NCBI GenBank assembly: GCA_030693065.1
Contig: JAUYBL010000024.1
Location: 62,001-126,000 of the forward strand
From: Methylococcaceae bacterium
Lineage (GTDB): Bacteria > Pseudomonadota > Gammaproteobacteria > Methylococcales > Methylomonadaceae
Length of the DNA: 64,000 nt
Direction: 5' to 3'
The notes beneath the pieces are model-generated. The model worked only from the letters and a program-made list of their open reading frames with translations, had not been told where the DNA came from and did not search any database. This document shows, piece by piece, positions 4,074 to 62,206 of this stretch. The translations under genes and the position numbers were made by a program. How positions within the stretch are numbered: the first letter of the stretch is position 1; each line of letters opens with the position of its first letter.

Positions 4074-5492
4074 ATGGCTATAAAACATCACCGGTTAGCG
4101 CTTTTGTCAATCGCTTTGGCGGCCGTATCAACCAGCACAACATTCGCAGACCCAAGCATTTACCCCACTGGCGTAACCCGCTACGATCCCGGCAAAGCTT
4201 TTAACAGCTATGTTCTGTTTTCCGGCGGTGACAGAAAAACCCATCTGATTGACCTTAATGGCAATGATGTGCATCAATGGGCTAACACCGGTCAACCGCC
4301 ATTTTTTATTGACCCGCAATTAGTGGGCGGACAGCAAGGACACGTGTTGCTGCAATTATCTGGAGCAACCGGTGGAGGAGGCAACAATAAGGAAGCTCAA
4401 TCTATAGGCGAAGTGGATTGGGATGGCAAGGTGGTCTGGCAATGGGGCGGCGCTAAAGCCCAAGACTCCTACGGTGCAGCTGGCAACAGCAATGACACCA
4501 GTGGTTACGGCACAACAATTAGACAGCACCACGACTGGCGCAGGCTGCCGAACGGTAACACCGTCATTTTGATTAATTATGAAAAGCCGGTTAAGGGATT
4601 TAAAGCCGAAAAACTGTTGGATGATGGCATTTATGAAGTTGATCCTAAAGGTCAAGTCGTCTGGAAATGGCACGCTTATGACCACTTGAATGAGTTTGGT
4701 TTTAGCAAAGCCTCATTGAAATACTTACACGACACTTTAGGTCGCGGTAATGACAAAACCAAACCATTTGATTATTTACATTTCAATAACATGTCCGTCG
4801 TTGGCCCCAACAAATGGTTTGATGCAGGCGACCAACGCTTTCACCCTGATAACTTGTTGATCGATTCACGCGAAGCCAATTTTATCGCCATAATCGAGAA
4901 GAAGACCGGCAAAATCGTCTGGCACATTGGCCCTGATTACCCATCAGCTATTTTTGAGAACAAAGTGCCTAGGCCGGTAGACCAAATTAGCGGTCAACAC
5001 GATGCCCACATCATTCCTAAAGGCCTGCCCGGCGAAGGTAATTTGTTGGTGTTCGATAACCAAGGTGAAGCAGGCTATCCACCCGTAAAATTGGGTGTTG
5101 GCGGCCAACTAGGTTCGCGCGTGCTGGAAATTGATCCAACCAAAAAAGAAATTGTCTGGCAATACACCGGAGCTGATTCCGGTCGGCCTAATTACACTTT
5201 TTATAGTTCCTACATCAGCAGTGCGCGCCGTTTGCCTAATGGCAATACACTGATCGATGAAGGTATGAATGGCCGATTCCTCCAGGTCACCAACAAAGGT
5301 GAAATTGTCTGGGAATACATTAGCCCTTACTTCACCGAACCACGCGCCGATGACCCGCAACAAGTAATAAGCAACACCGTATATCGTGCGCAACCGGTGC
5401 CATATGACTGGGCGCCAGCAGGAACACCGCATTCAGAAAAACCGGTCAAAGCCCAGGATATCAGCCAGTTCCGCATTTCTGCTGTCCAGTAA
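4074..5492 (+). CDS. Exported arylsulfotransferase (ASST)-family protein
   Basis: 472 aa from an ATG with a GAGGAAG ribosome site. A signal peptide of about 25 residues ends in TFA-DP. The mature part has repeated beta-propeller-like elements of the form IDxxGxVVWxW (GEVDWDGKVVWQW, YEVDPKGQVVWKW, LEIDPTKKEIVWQYTG, GEIVWEY) and LPNGNT motifs. These are typical of the arylsulfotransferase family, whose enzymes move sulfate between phenols in the periplasm using a sulfohistidine. Candidate active-site histidines lie in RQHHDWRRLPNGN and GQHDAHIIP. The next gene is a sulfatase on the same strand, which supports a role in sulfate ester chemistry. Some family members are not catalytic, so the reaction is inferred. 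Confidence 0.8.
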   Translation: MAIKHHRLALLSIALAAVSTSTTFADPSIYPTGVTRYDPGKAFNSYVLFSGGDRKTHLIDLNGNDVHQWANTGQPPFFIDPQLVGGQQGHVLLQLSGATGGGGNNKEAQSIGEVDWDGKVVWQWGGAKAQDSYGAAGNSNDTSGYGTTIRQHHDWRRLPNGNTVILINYEKPVKGFKAEKLLDDGIYEVDPKGQVVWKWHAYDHLNEFGFSKASLKYLHDTLGRGNDKTKPFDYLHFNNMSVVGPNKWFDAGDQRFHPDNLLIDSREANFIAIIEKKTGKIVWHIGPDYPSAIFENKVPRPVDQISGQHDAHIIPKGLPGEGNLLVFDNQGEAGYPPVKLGVGGQLGSRVLEIDPTKKEIVWQYTGADSGRPNYTFYSSYISSARRLPNGNTLIDEGMNGRFLQVTNKGEIVWEYISPYFTEPRADDPQQVISNTVYRAQPVPYDWAPAGTPHSEKPVKAQDISQFRISAVQ

Positions 5493-5557: not shown

Positions 5558-6991
5558 TTGGAAACCGCTTTGAGTACATTTAATAAAAACCGTCGTCGCG
5601 TGCTGGGAGGTCTATCGGCACTCTCGCTGGCCTCGCTTACCAGCAATTGGAATTTTGCAACTGCCGCAGAAAAAACGGACAAGCCAAACATTATCTTCAT
5701 TCTTGCCGACGATCTTGGTGTCGGCGATTTAAGTATTTACGGGCAAACGGATTTTCAAACACCCAATCTCGACCAACTTGCGCAACAAGGTTTACGTTTT
5801 ACCCAAGCTTATTCGAACTCCGCGGTCTGCTCGGCAACTCGTTTTGGCTTGATTACCGGCCGTTATCAATACCGTTTACGCGGCGGTTTGGAAGAACCCA
5901 TTGCCGGAGCCTCTGATACCATCGGCTTACCGCCGGAACACCCGACGCTACCCTCGCTGTTAAAGAAAAACGGTTACACCACTGCCTTATTTGGCAAATG
6001 GCATTTGGGATCTTTACCAAATTTCGGCCCGCTCAAAAGCGGCTACGATGTGTTTTTTGGTAACTATGGCGGCGCCATTGATTATTTCACCCACAAGCCC
6101 GGTGTTGGCGATAATGTTAAAGAAGACTTATTCGAAGGCGAAGTGTCAGTGCATAAAGTGGGTTATTACACCGACCTGATTGCCGACCATGCAGTTGATT
6201 ACATCGGAAAACAGGAGGCTACCAAACCCTTTTTCCTGTCTTTGCACTTTACTGCGCCGCACTGGCCTTGGGAAGGTCCGAAAGATGAGGCAACCTCTGG
6301 CGAAATCAAAAGCCTGTTTCATTACGATGGCGGTAATTTGGCGACCTATGCCAAGATGGTCACTTCGCTAGACGCAGCGATTGGCCGCGTTTTGAAAACC
6401 CTGAAAGATCGAGGTTTAGATAAGAACACCATCGTGGTGTTTACCAGCGATAACGGTGGTGAACGCTTCTCAAAAACCTGGCCGTACACCGGACAGAAAA
6501 CTGAATTGCTGGAGGGCGGCATACGCATACCGGCAATTGTGCGTTGGCCAACAAAAATCAAACCTGCGCAAGTGACTCAGCAAGTGGCGATCAGCATGGA
6601 TTGGCTACCGACATTGGTTGCCGCTGCGGGTGGAGAGCCTGATGCCGCCTATAAACCCGATGGTGAAAATCTGCTGCCAGTTATCTTGGGCACTGCCAAA
6701 CTCCAGCAGCGAACTTTATTCTGGCGTTACAAAGCCAATAAACAACGCGCCGTGCGCGCGGGTGATTGGAAATATCTAAAAATCGCCGACAATGAATTTT
6801 TATTTGATGTCGTCAACGATCAGCGTGAACGTGCCAATCTGGCAGAAAAAAATCCCGATGTATTTAATAAGCTCAAACAACAATGGGAAGCTTGGGATGC
6901 GAGCATGTTACCGATCACGAAGGATGTACGGACTCATGCTGTGGATGGCAAAGTTCAGGCAGATCGTTATCGTGCTTTGATTGAAGACTAA
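5558..6991 (+). CDS. Tat-exported arylsulfatase (type I sulfatase)
   Basis: 477 aa. The start is a TTG at 5558 or, equally possible, a TTG at 5570 that has GGAAA just upstream. The N-terminus carries NRRRVLGGLSALSLASL, a twin-arginine type signal, ending near TAAEKT. The core begins PNIIFILADDLGVGDL, with the metal-binding DD. The formylglycine site is CSATRFGLITGRYQYR, a C-x-A-x-R variant common in arylsulfatases, so the Cys is expected to be converted to formylglycine. ALFGKWHLG and FTSDNGG complete the signature. It should hydrolyse sulfate esters in the periplasm. No formylglycine-generating enzyme is in the window. It is 65 bases after the ASST-family gene. Confidence 0.93.
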   Translation: METALSTFNKNRRRVLGGLSALSLASLTSNWNFATAAEKTDKPNIIFILADDLGVGDLSIYGQTDFQTPNLDQLAQQGLRFTQAYSNSAVCSATRFGLITGRYQYRLRGGLEEPIAGASDTIGLPPEHPTLPSLLKKNGYTTALFGKWHLGSLPNFGPLKSGYDVFFGNYGGAIDYFTHKPGVGDNVKEDLFEGEVSVHKVGYYTDLIADHAVDYIGKQEATKPFFLSLHFTAPHWPWEGPKDEATSGEIKSLFHYDGGNLATYAKMVTSLDAAIGRVLKTLKDRGLDKNTIVVFTSDNGGERFSKTWPYTGQKTELLEGGIRIPAIVRWPTKIKPAQVTQQVAISMDWLPTLVAAAGGEPDAAYKPDGENLLPVILGTAKLQQRTLFWRYKANKQRAVRAGDWKYLKIADNEFLFDVVNDQRERANLAEKNPDVFNKLKQQWEAWDASMLPITKDVRTHAVDGKVQADRYRALIED

Positions 6992-58973: not shown

Positions 58974-59969
58974 TCATTGCCAGCGCGCACGCCCCCAAGA
59001 ACGGCGCTGCTCTGCATCCAAAAAAGTCCATGCCACCAAGCGGCTCTTTTTTTGCCCCTGCGCCATCTCTATCGTTCTAAAATCTTGCACTCTCGCTTTT
59101 TTCAGTGCGCGGTAGACGCCGGGCAGACTGGCAGACTTTGAAATCAGCGTGGTAAACCATAAGCAACGGCCAGAAAATACAGCGCTCTCAGCAATCATAC
59201 GGCAGACGAACGCTTCTTCGCCGCCGTCACACCACAACTCCGCGCCCTGCCCGCCAAAATTCAACACCGGTTTTCTGGCGACTGCTTTGCCAAGATTCTT
59301 CCATTTGCGTTGCGTTCCCGCCAGTGCGTCGGAGGGTGAGGCATGAAAAGGCGGATTGCACAGCGTCACATCAAACACTTCGTCAGCCTGAATAATGCCC
59401 TTAAAAATAAAACTACTGGAAGATTGCAGCCGCAGCTCAATCGCCTCGCTTAATCCTGGATTGGCATCCAGAATGCGTTGCGCATTGGCGAGCGCGGCCG
59501 GATCAATATCGCTGCCGACGAACTGCCAGCCATAGCAACGCTGGCCAAGCAGCGGATAAATGCCGTTCGCACCGGTGCCGATGTCGAGCGCTCGCGCGCA
59601 AGACGGCACTAGACCTAAGTTATTTTCAGCCAATAAATCCGCCAGATAATGTAAATAATCCGCCCGGCCCGGAATCGGCGGACAAAGATACTGCGCCGGA
59701 ATATCCCAACTGGTAATGCCATAACAATCCAATAAAAGCGCCCGATTCAGCGCCCTGACCGCAGCCGGATTGGCAAAATCAATGGATGCATCACCATAAG
59801 CATTGGCCGATACAAAGGCCGCCAACTCTGGGCTGGCCGTGATGAGTTGCGGGAAGTCATAACGCCCCCGATGCAGATTGCGCGGATGCAAAGCGAGTTT
59901 TACTGCCTTTACGGAAGCGGATCGTTTAGCTGGCTGCTGAAAAGCGCGCTTTGATTTTTCCCGATTCAT
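58974..59969 (-). CDS. rlmF: 23S rRNA m6A1618 methyltransferase RlmF
   Basis: 331 aa. [33 protein letters not shown] (SAM loop), and the catalytic LCNPPFHAS fit RlmF (YbiN). It methylates A1618 of 23S rRNA. The basic N-terminus and the [11 protein letters not shown] stretch are also family-typical. Confidence 0.95.
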
Positions 59970-59985: not shown

Positions 59986-60048
59986 CTAGGGCCTCCGCCG
60001 ATTTCCAATCCTTTGCAGTGCTTTGTTTTCGTCCCACTCATATTCCAT
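59986..60048 (-). pseudogene. BrnT toxin remnant
   Basis: From the ATG at 60048 the frame reads MEYEWDENKALQRI, like the start of BrnT (DUF497) toxins, then goes out of register and stops after 20 codons. No brnA is present. A hairpin element and an attC-like site lie just upstream, so the gene was probably cut by rearrangement. Confidence 0.5.
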
Positions 60049-60154
60049 AAAAACTCTTATTTTTGATTTTACAACACTCGCGACTTGTAAGGCAGTGGCG
60101 TCGTGGATTCGCCGATTGGCAATCCGCCATTCATCCACGTTACCGGGGTTTTTC

Positions 60155-60240
60155 GTAGGGTGGGCAAGCGTCTTTTTGCTTGCCCACCAATTATGCCAAA
60201 GTCTGCGTGGGCAAACGATACAGCCGTTTGCCCACCCTAC
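60155..60240. repeat. Nested inverted repeat (GTAGGGTGGGCAA ends)
   Basis: GTAGGGTGGGCAA at 60155-60167 pairs exactly with 60228-60240. Each half also folds alone: GTGGGCAAGC with GCTTGCCCAC, and GTGGGCAAACG with CGTTTGCCCAC. It is a cruciform-like repeat of the same general kind as 12811-12878 and 46095-46185. Confidence 0.85.
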
Positions 60241-60294
60241 CCGGCTAATGAAATCCAATCAGAAATCTCTCCGGTTATGTTGTGTGCCCCTTAT

Positions 60295-60347
60295 GCATAA
60301 CGCCGTGCTCAACGGAAAATTCGTCCGAGTGCAGCACTTTGTTATGT
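60295..60347 (-). other. attC-like integron recombination site
   Basis: Read on the minus strand: ACATAAC (60347-60341), then AAAGTGCTGCACTCGG, a short centre, TTGAGCACGGC and GTTATGC (60301-60295). The outer 7-base boxes are inverse copies (6 of 7). The inner arms GTGCT-CA/TGAGCAC pair with one extra unpaired G, a known mark of attC folded sites. The stop codon of the upstream gene lies in the first box, as in true cassettes. Confidence 0.75.
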
Positions 60348-61108
60348 GCCATCTCGTTGCTTGATATGACCTTGTGTTTCGGTTGGGATTAAATCAGCGT
60401 AAAGCTCCTCTAATTCTTTTGGTTTAGTAATTAGTTCTTCAGCAATAAAATTTAAAATACCAAATAACTTTTGAGCAATTTCAGTATTGTCTTCCAAGTT
60501 TATTTGCCCAGGATGAACGGCATTATTGCCTATTACTCTTAGCAAATCTAAAGCTTGCTGTATTTTCGGGCTCATACCTTCAGCTACTAACGCCTTTATA
60601 TCGTCGTTTATGTTCTTACCACTCTTGCCTACTTGTTCCAATAGTTTTTGAAGAGCTAAGCGTAATAGAGCGGTAGCGCCTTTTGGTGAGTCTATAAGAA
60701 TTGAAGAAGCCTCAATGTAAAGAGCTCTAATGTCTTCGTTTAAGTCATCATTTGGTGGTGGAAGTGTCGTTTTTTTAGGATAAACGATTACTTTGTTTAC
60801 CCACAATGTAAATTCTTCACATGAAGAGCACGTGGCTATTGAAAATCCCCTAGGCACAAATTTGTAAAAATTATTTTTAAACCCATCATCAATTTCTTTT
60901 AAGAAACCGACTATCTGTGTTTGAGCGTAATCACCAATACTTGGCCTGTAATCCAAGTAGAGATGATGAAAAATTCCTGTTGCCGTGCTACTTGCATTAT
61001 TCGCAGTAAACCACTCTTGGCTTGCAACTGTATTGCAGTGTGGACATTGAAATTTCTTATTTCCATACTCAGGTATCATTAATTACTCCGTAAATTTACC
61101 TCACATAA
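60296..61108 (-). mobile_element. Probable single integron gene cassette
   Basis: A GTTATGT core on the minus strand at 61109-61103 lies just upstream of the DUF4145 gene, and the attC-like site ends with GTTATGC at 60301-60295. The unit in between holds one gene with its stop in the attC box and very short 5' spacing, the layout of a gene cassette. No integrase gene is in the window. Confidence 0.6.
60342..61079 (-). CDS. DUF4145 protein with zinc ribbon (cassette gene)
   Basis: 245 aa. An N-terminal zinc-ribbon (CPHC near residue 12, CSSC near residue 85) is followed by a DUF4145 helical domain: ALYIEASSILIDSPKGATALLRLALQKLLEQ, GMSPKIQQALDLLRVIGNNAVHPG, NFIAEELITKPKELEELY (each a family hallmark, cited in part). 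DUF4145 occurs alone or in restriction and defence proteins and may bind nucleic acids. The stop TAA is part of the attC box, so the gene appears to be carried as a cassette. Confidence 0.88.
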   Translation of the reverse strand: MIPEYGNKKFQCPHCNTVASQEWFTANNASSTATGIFHHLYLDYRPSIGDYAQTQIVGFLKEIDDGFKNNFYKFVPRGFSIATCSSCEEFTLWVNKVIVYPKKTTLPPPNDDLNEDIRALYIEASSILIDSPKGATALLRLALQKLLEQVGKSGKNINDDIKALVAEGMSPKIQQALDLLRVIGNNAVHPGQINLEDNTEIAQKLFGILNFIAEELITKPKELEELYADLIPTETQGHIKQRDGT

Positions 61109-61174
61109 CAAATAATTATATGGTTTCTGTATATCTTCTCCTATCGGATGATATACAACGAAACCGCCTTACAA

Positions 61175-62206
61175 CTATTTCCTGGGTTCCCGCTTGCGCA
61201 TTCTTTGCGGCACCGGAACTGCTGGCTCGGGCTTCTCATCCTGAAATTTTTCCGGAGTCATGCCGGCAAATTCAAACAACAATTCCAGCTCTTTGCCGTT
61301 AATTTCGTAATGGGCTTTAGCTTTTAGCCGTTCCGGCAATACTACCGGTCCATAACGCACACGAATCAATCTGCTGACGGTAACGCCTTGTGATTCCCAT
61401 AAACGCCTGACTAAACGGTTTCGGCCTTCGCTGACAATAACGTGATACCACTTGTTGGCACCTTCGCCGCCATAAAAACGAATTTCATCAAATTTGGCTT
61501 TGCCGTCTTCCAGTTCCACGCCCTGTTTGAGCAGCGCTAAGGTGGCCTCTGGTACATCACCTAAAATACGCACGGCATATTCACGTTCAACTTGGGACGA
61601 TGGGTGCATCAAGCGATTCGCCAGTTCGCCGTTATTGGTGACCAGCAATAACCCAGAGGTATTAATGTCTAAGCGTCCGACGGAAATCCAGCGTGCCGTG
61701 AGCAGTTTCGGCAACTGGGTAAAAATTACCGGGCGGCCTTCCGGATCACGGCGAGTAACCACTTCGCCGGTAGGTTTGTGATACAGCAACACGCGAGTGG
61801 GTTGCAGGGCAAACTTTTCCCAATTAATAATTCTTTCGTTAAGCAGCAAGCGATCGCCATCTCTTAGACGGTCGCCAAGCTTAACGGGGTGCCCGTTAAG
61901 CGTCAGCTTACCTTCGTCTATCCAGCGCTCAATTTCTCGCCGGGAACCAACGCCGCCGCGCGCCAGCACTTTTTGGATACGCTCGCCGCCATCGACTGGC
62001 TCGGATTTTTTCGGCCTAGGCGCAGATTTAGCTGCTGATTTATCTGCAGGTTTATTGTCGGATTTGGCTTTATTTTCAGCCAACTGCTCTTGATAACGTT
62101 TAGCTGAGCCCGGCTTGCTCTTGGTTGGTTTCTGCGGCCGCTGTGTTGATTTTTGTGTCCTCGAGGGACTCTTCGGTGGCTTGTTGCCTGGTTTGTTGTT
62201 GCTCAC
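61175..62206 (-). CDS. rluB: 23S rRNA pseudouridine synthase RluB
   Basis: 343 aa starting at GTG with CAGGTAGACA upstream. A basic Lys/Pro/Ser-rich N-tail is followed by an S4 domain (RIQKVLARGGVGSRREIERWI) and the RsuA/RluB core with the catalytic Asp in SVGRLDINTSGLLLVTNNG. Makes pseudouridine 2605 in 23S rRNA. The start lies 107 bases inside the end of scpB. Confidence 0.94.
   Translation of the reverse strand: MSNNKPGNKPPKSPSRTQKSTQRPQKPTKSKPGSAKRYQEQLAENKAKSDNKPADKSAAKSAPRPKKSEPVDGGERIQKVLARGGVGSRREIERWIDEGKLTLNGHPVKLGDRLRDGDRLLLNERIINWEKFALQPTRVLLYHKPTGEVVTRRDPEGRPVIFTQLPKLLTARWISVGRLDINTSGLLLVTNNGELANRLMHPSSQVEREYAVRILGDVPEATLALLKQGVELEDGKAKFDEIRFYGGEGANKWYHVIVSEGRNRLVRRLWESQGVTVSRLIRVRYGPVVLPERLKAKAHYEINGKELELLFEFAGMTPEKFQDEKPEPAVPVPQRMRKREPRK

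Follow-up and report, generated by a model that had tools for sequence, protein, structure and literature searches.

A single integron cassette with a PD-T7-4-type gene at a probable stand-alone attI-like site behind rluB in a Methylococcaceae genome

How does a single integron cassette come to lie behind an rluB-like gene in a genome that holds no intact integron integrase? The question is raised by a 64,000-nucleotide stretch of DNA from a Methylococcaceae bacterium (assembly GCA_030693065.1, contig JAUYBL010000024.1, positions 62,001 to 126,000), hereafter the window, whose host we take to be a methanotroph because it carries a gene for subunit A of methane/ammonia monooxygenase. A sequence-only reading had proposed an isolated cassette at 60295..61109, consisting of a DUF4145 gene that ends inside an attC-like site, without an integrase and next to toxin-gene debris. 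The answer that we favor is that this cassette, an attC site plus a PD-T7-4-type gene, was probably inserted by an integron integrase at a stand-alone attI-like site behind rluB, one member of a dispersed attI family. The cognate enzyme would be a long integron integrase with roughly 150 extra N-terminal residues, a kind encoded next to copies of the site in relatives.

The attC site of the cassette is genuine by an independent covariance model. It occupies 53 bases on the minus strand (60295..60347), with the inverse end boxes R'' ACATAAC (60347-60341) and R' GTTATGC (60301-60295), and was recognized by the model as well as by folding. The model excludes this genome and derives from 24 sites, which come from relatives (integrase-linked arrays) and from an array of Vibrio jasicida. 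In the 64 kb window the site is its sole match up to E 10, with a score of 32.6 bits (E 6e-6); searched over the whole 3.96 Mb genome, the same site has an E-value of 3.7e-4. The sequence-only reading had staked its attC on not scoring as background in such a search, and the result came out on its side. Rfam at gathering cut-offs gave no match within the window. As single-stranded DNA, the bottom strand of the site folds at -11.3 kcal/mol (z -2.8), a value that 199 of 200 dinucleotide shuffles do not reach, and the top strand folds more weakly (z -1.7). Better folding of the bottom than of the top strand is expected of an attC site. The unpaired G that had been noticed in the stem is real: it lies in the 5' arm after 5 spacer bases and 3 pairs (GCT), and the attC sites of relatives also have an extra base at the corresponding place.

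The predicted exchange point of the attC lies between G60301 and T60300, and a matching core, GTTATGTG, stands at the start of the cassette (61109-61102, minus strand), so that both ends fall at G|TT. In its excisable form the whole cassette would run from TTATGTG to the G of R', 808 bp on the minus strand (60301..61108), and the span given by the sequence-only reading, with its end boxes and its GTTATGT core at the gene start, proved exact to the base. R'' is perfectly complementary to the start of its own cassette (ACATAAC pairs with GTTATGT), as is required for an excised circle, and the left cassette boundary coincides with the point where homology to a sister species (G001) stops. Excision and integration of the cassette would be the work of an IntI.

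The cassette gene (60342..61079, minus strand) has its TAA stop codon within the R'' box and encodes a 245-aa protein that matches Pfam PF13643 (DUF4145; E 1.3e-14) and the PADLOC model PD-T7-4 (E 6.5e-74), and that has a sequence relative of solved structure, the DUF4145 protein 9y9c (E 4.4e-43). Its own predicted structure (mean pLDDT, the predicted local distance difference test score, of 57) was too poor for a search by fold. Based upon these matches it is probably an anti-phage gene, and by analogy with its family the cassette would be expected to protect against phage. Homologues are rare, being present in 3 of 369 genomes of the class, this genome included. One of them, 57% identical, is itself a cassette in the Vibrio jasicida array, where its stop codon also adjoins or sits in R''; the sequence-only reading had advised looking for the same gene in cassette arrays, and by homology the window gene is a cassette gene. 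A second homologue, in Marinomonas (L013), is 88% identical. Two reverse group II intron 3' ends (Rfam RF00029) are present in L013, at 6543-6612 and 4782-4851, and one of them abuts the CACATAA end, the R'', of this homologue. Targeting of attC sites is a habit of group IIC introns, and the placement of this intron, putatively of that class, is consistent with it.

On its other side the cassette abuts an attI-like site (61102..61159, minus strand), which comprises an inverted arm TGTATATC (61157-61150), a repeat GATATACAG from 61135, and the core TTG|TTATGTG; it thus has the G|TTRRRY core and the upstream repeat of an attI, one of two repeats having been lost. At this position behind rluB, G001 has another gene; the sequence that the two have in common continues up to TTG|TT and then ends. 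A search pattern derived from the window flank, with the GTT left out, found 32 places in 41 genomes, versus 3 for the reversed pattern, and many of these places then show G|TTRRRY followed by an unrelated gene. A sequence model (R2) made from 17 other copies, without the window copy in its training, matches the window copy at 36.3 bits (E 2.7e-10). Strong copies (best E<=1e-6) occur in 51 of 201 genomes of the family, and copies reach 19 per genome at E<=0.1, a threshold at which weak single matches may be chance. Full copies are approximately 150-200 bp long and have, besides an inverted arm, the direct repeat GATATACNG twice; the window copy, the G001 copy and one copy in G424 have lost what lies between the repeats. 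A sigma-70 promoter was sought in the attI-like site and none was found. Three other sources for the flank were tried and rejected: a plasmid or phage repeat (plasmid matches at chance level only, no viral contig), the attI of a truncated intI on contig C1 of this genome (the gap there bears no resemblance to the window flank), and integrase loci of canonical length, at which the model found no attI-like match. To the left of the L128, L143 and L185 copies we also observed a long hairpin (AGGGGTCGCTATG...CATAGCGACC) together with repeats of the CTACACATAG type, possibly the left end of a larger element.

Many sites of this family are associated with an attC. In the 2 kb downstream of the site, an attC on the same strand is present at 17 of 40 attI-like copies, against 0.08 expected from the genome-wide rate, and none lies upstream or on the opposite strand, bar one that belongs to a neighboring copy. 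What follows the site differs between close relatives. In each of three orthologous groups (window/G001; G008/G415/G437; G014/G460), some 700 bp of DNA ahead of G|TT are 91-95% identical, and beyond that point the pairs that were compared show unrelated sequence. At the G008/G415/G437 site, a gene X comes first in G008 (L131) and G437 (L167) and is missing from G415 (L155), and a gene Y directly follows the attI in G415 and comes second in G008, where the junction ahead of it, GGTTAATTACTTG|TTAAAG, is a partial attI. The orders are thus attI-X-attI-Z in G437, attI-X-partial attI-Y in G008, and attI-Y in G415. This looks like gain and loss at the level of cassettes, perhaps through attI-flanked units akin to the delta-attI cassettes of class 1 integrons, and suggests that such units can move. 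As read from the sequences, the differences in cargo between species favor some activity after the species split; they do not indicate where the integrase gene was located at that time.

A candidate for the enzyme is provided by G539, a complete genome of one contig. Here some 130 bp separate a copy from the start of a divergent integron integrase of 462 aa (L195:1549-2937, minus strand), and the copy is followed by four attC sites. The roughly 150 extra N-terminal residues of this long integrase have no Pfam match; similar enzymes occur in G424, G442, G459 and G005. Parts of this arrangement recur elsewhere: a copy in G007 (L138) keeps the first 173 residues of the long integrase at the G539 spacing, the L191 copy retains the start region of intI, and two loci in G415, with integrase parts 86-87% identical, show the repeats at the same spacing with weak model scores. 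Three further intI-linked attI regions bear TATACGGAAA-type repeats, and the attI regions of distant long integrases (54% identical to that of G539) have, by eye, only ATAACTTG|TT in common. In G459, which has a long intI (L233, L234), the attI core is directly followed by a GC-rich hairpin (CCCGGCGGCTTCGCCGCCGGG) and not by a cassette start. At the window copy, divergent intI is absent, as is any trace of intI within 2.5 kb of most sampled copies. The flank is putatively the attI of the long-integrase group, which IntI would bind and cut.

Integrase genes above the cut-off are present in 23 of the 41 genomes searched. In this genome, which is 99.93% complete, the integron-integrase model has no full match anywhere, and the sole integron-type remnant is a 107-aa IntI N-terminal piece on contig C1, in keeping with the proposal of a cassette without an integrase. 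That piece belongs to a degraded canonical integron (L009, G000:C1:74000-84445, 5666-6855), in which it lies behind tilS and is followed by an attI-like gap, a cassette with an HNH-endonuclease gene and an attC of 34.8 bits, and then REP-type (repetitive extragenic palindrome) transposase genes. The covariance model yields 9 attC candidates in the whole genome, including that of the HNH cassette and five on contig C25. The latter form two integrase-less clusters of 2 and 3 sites (L126 and L127; G000:C25:113732-114420, minus strand, and 138692-140040, plus strand), with no attI-like site in front. Since no intact integrase is left in the genome, the window cassette is probably now fixed.

Several readings of these data have to be weighed. 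That the cassette went into an ordinary attG site of the chromosome, the 5' flank being a mere AT-rich target, would be in keeping with the single cassettes known from non-attI sites (Loot et al. 2024, as related in PMC12690207 and PMC12444791) and with the canonical integron formerly present on C1. We consider it unlikely, because the flank is conserved: attG sites show little conservation and are scattered, but the window flank belongs to a multi-copy family that is conserved over 65-200 bp, has repeats, and is found beside the long intI. The earlier proposal of an isolated cassette lacking an integrase stood, but the place is not random. It is about as improbable that the flank has nothing to do with integrons and is a regulatory repeat, or a repeat from the end of a transposon, positioned before genes by chance. 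An operator or the end of an element could account for its inverted arms and direct repeats, a copy without a cassette is found upstream of clpB, and some copies have the hairpin with CTACACATAG repeats to their left; yet the attC sites lie exclusively downstream on the same strand, the differences in cargo begin at G|TT, and one copy is placed beside a long intI.

A more serious contender, possible though doubtful, is local decay, in which a complete integron with a long intI behind rluB lost its integrase and all cassettes but one, and the other stand-alone copies are independent relics that are not used in trans. The residues of intI kept at the L138 and L191 copies fit such decay, and truncated long integrases do occur. 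On the other hand, most sampled copies lack any trace of intI, up to 19 copies per genome would demand equally many full integrons, and copies of the window's kind (type A) have at least 150 bp of conserved non-coding DNA at the place where intI would be expected to start. Insertion by an integron integrase at a stand-alone attI-like site remains our preferred explanation for the window cassette: the long integrase, acting in trans or once present at the locus, would have exchanged cassettes at G|TT. A broader and more tentative proposal, which may hold, is that of a dispersed integron, in which many attI sites that stand alone behind core genes act as slots for a long integrase, resident or incoming, each slot holding one or a few exchangeable cassettes, and attI spreads in attI-flanked units. 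A number of observations weigh against our preferred explanation. The window copy may be inactive and has a single direct repeat in place of two, and no type-A copy was seen beside an intact intI. Some attI-like copies lack the G|TT, no attC was detected within 2 kb at 23 of 40 copies, and the G001 cassette has no attC visible to the model. The attI regions of the long integrases that are 54% identical gave no match to the attI-like model. Finally, both the attC and the attI-like models were built in this analysis, and their E-values are rough.

With a single attC in 64 kb and no intI nearby, the locus is a single attC site lacking an integron integrase (SALIN), the solitary form of the clusters known as CALIN (IntegronFinder 2, PMC9024848; PMC12690207), and, with no intI next to the array, it is not a complete integron. 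Like these, it consists of an attC and a cassette gene without intI; it differs by its retained attI-like site, a feature that is no part of that definition and is not sought under it. IntegronFinder 2 detects attI for class 1 only, other attI sites being poorly described (PMC9024848), so an integrase-less array that keeps its attI is recorded simply as CALIN or SALIN. The sedentary chromosomal integrons of Vibrio and Xanthomonas are similarly chromosomal, with cassette-borne accessory genes and relatives that have intI and arrays, but they have one integrase beside one attI, whereas here there are many attI-like sites per genome, most of those sampled without intI. Insertions at attG share the chromosomal place without intI, but, unlike the window flank, attG sites (Loot et al. 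2024) are not a conserved repeat. The delta-attI-type cassettes of class 1 integrons (PMC12901181) share the attI-gene-attI order with G437 and, in part, with G008, but the present sites are chromosomal, belong to another attI family, and carry no resistance gene that we saw. The PD-T7-4 anti-phage system (PMC9519451) is matched by profile, but here its gene is borne as an integron cassette, which places a defense gene of this type among integron cassettes. The family of attI-like sites to which the window copy belongs is new here; in the open literature, subscription papers being outside the search, we found nothing on orphan or solo attI sites or on PD-T7-4 within integrons. If such a conserved multi-copy attI is real, some supposed remnants become candidate landing pads served in trans, the counting of cassette mobility would be altered, and the dispersed sites offer a testable case of an integron with its docking site scattered over the chromosome.

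The cassette lies between two genes on the same strand. Upstream, the rluB-like pseudouridine synthase gene (61175..62206, minus strand; Pfam PF00849 and S4) encodes a protein 94% identical to that of G001 and anchors the orthologous site there. In both sister species the variable gap ends at the downstream neighbor, an rlmF-like RNA methyltransferase gene (58974..59969, minus strand; Pfam PF05971, E 3e-125). The toxin-gene debris described beside the cassette was not borne out, the region in question (59986-60258) having no Pfam match. Within the gap after the attC, at 60155-60245, is a REP-like inverted repeat around GTAGGGTGGGCAA / TTGCCCACCCTAC.
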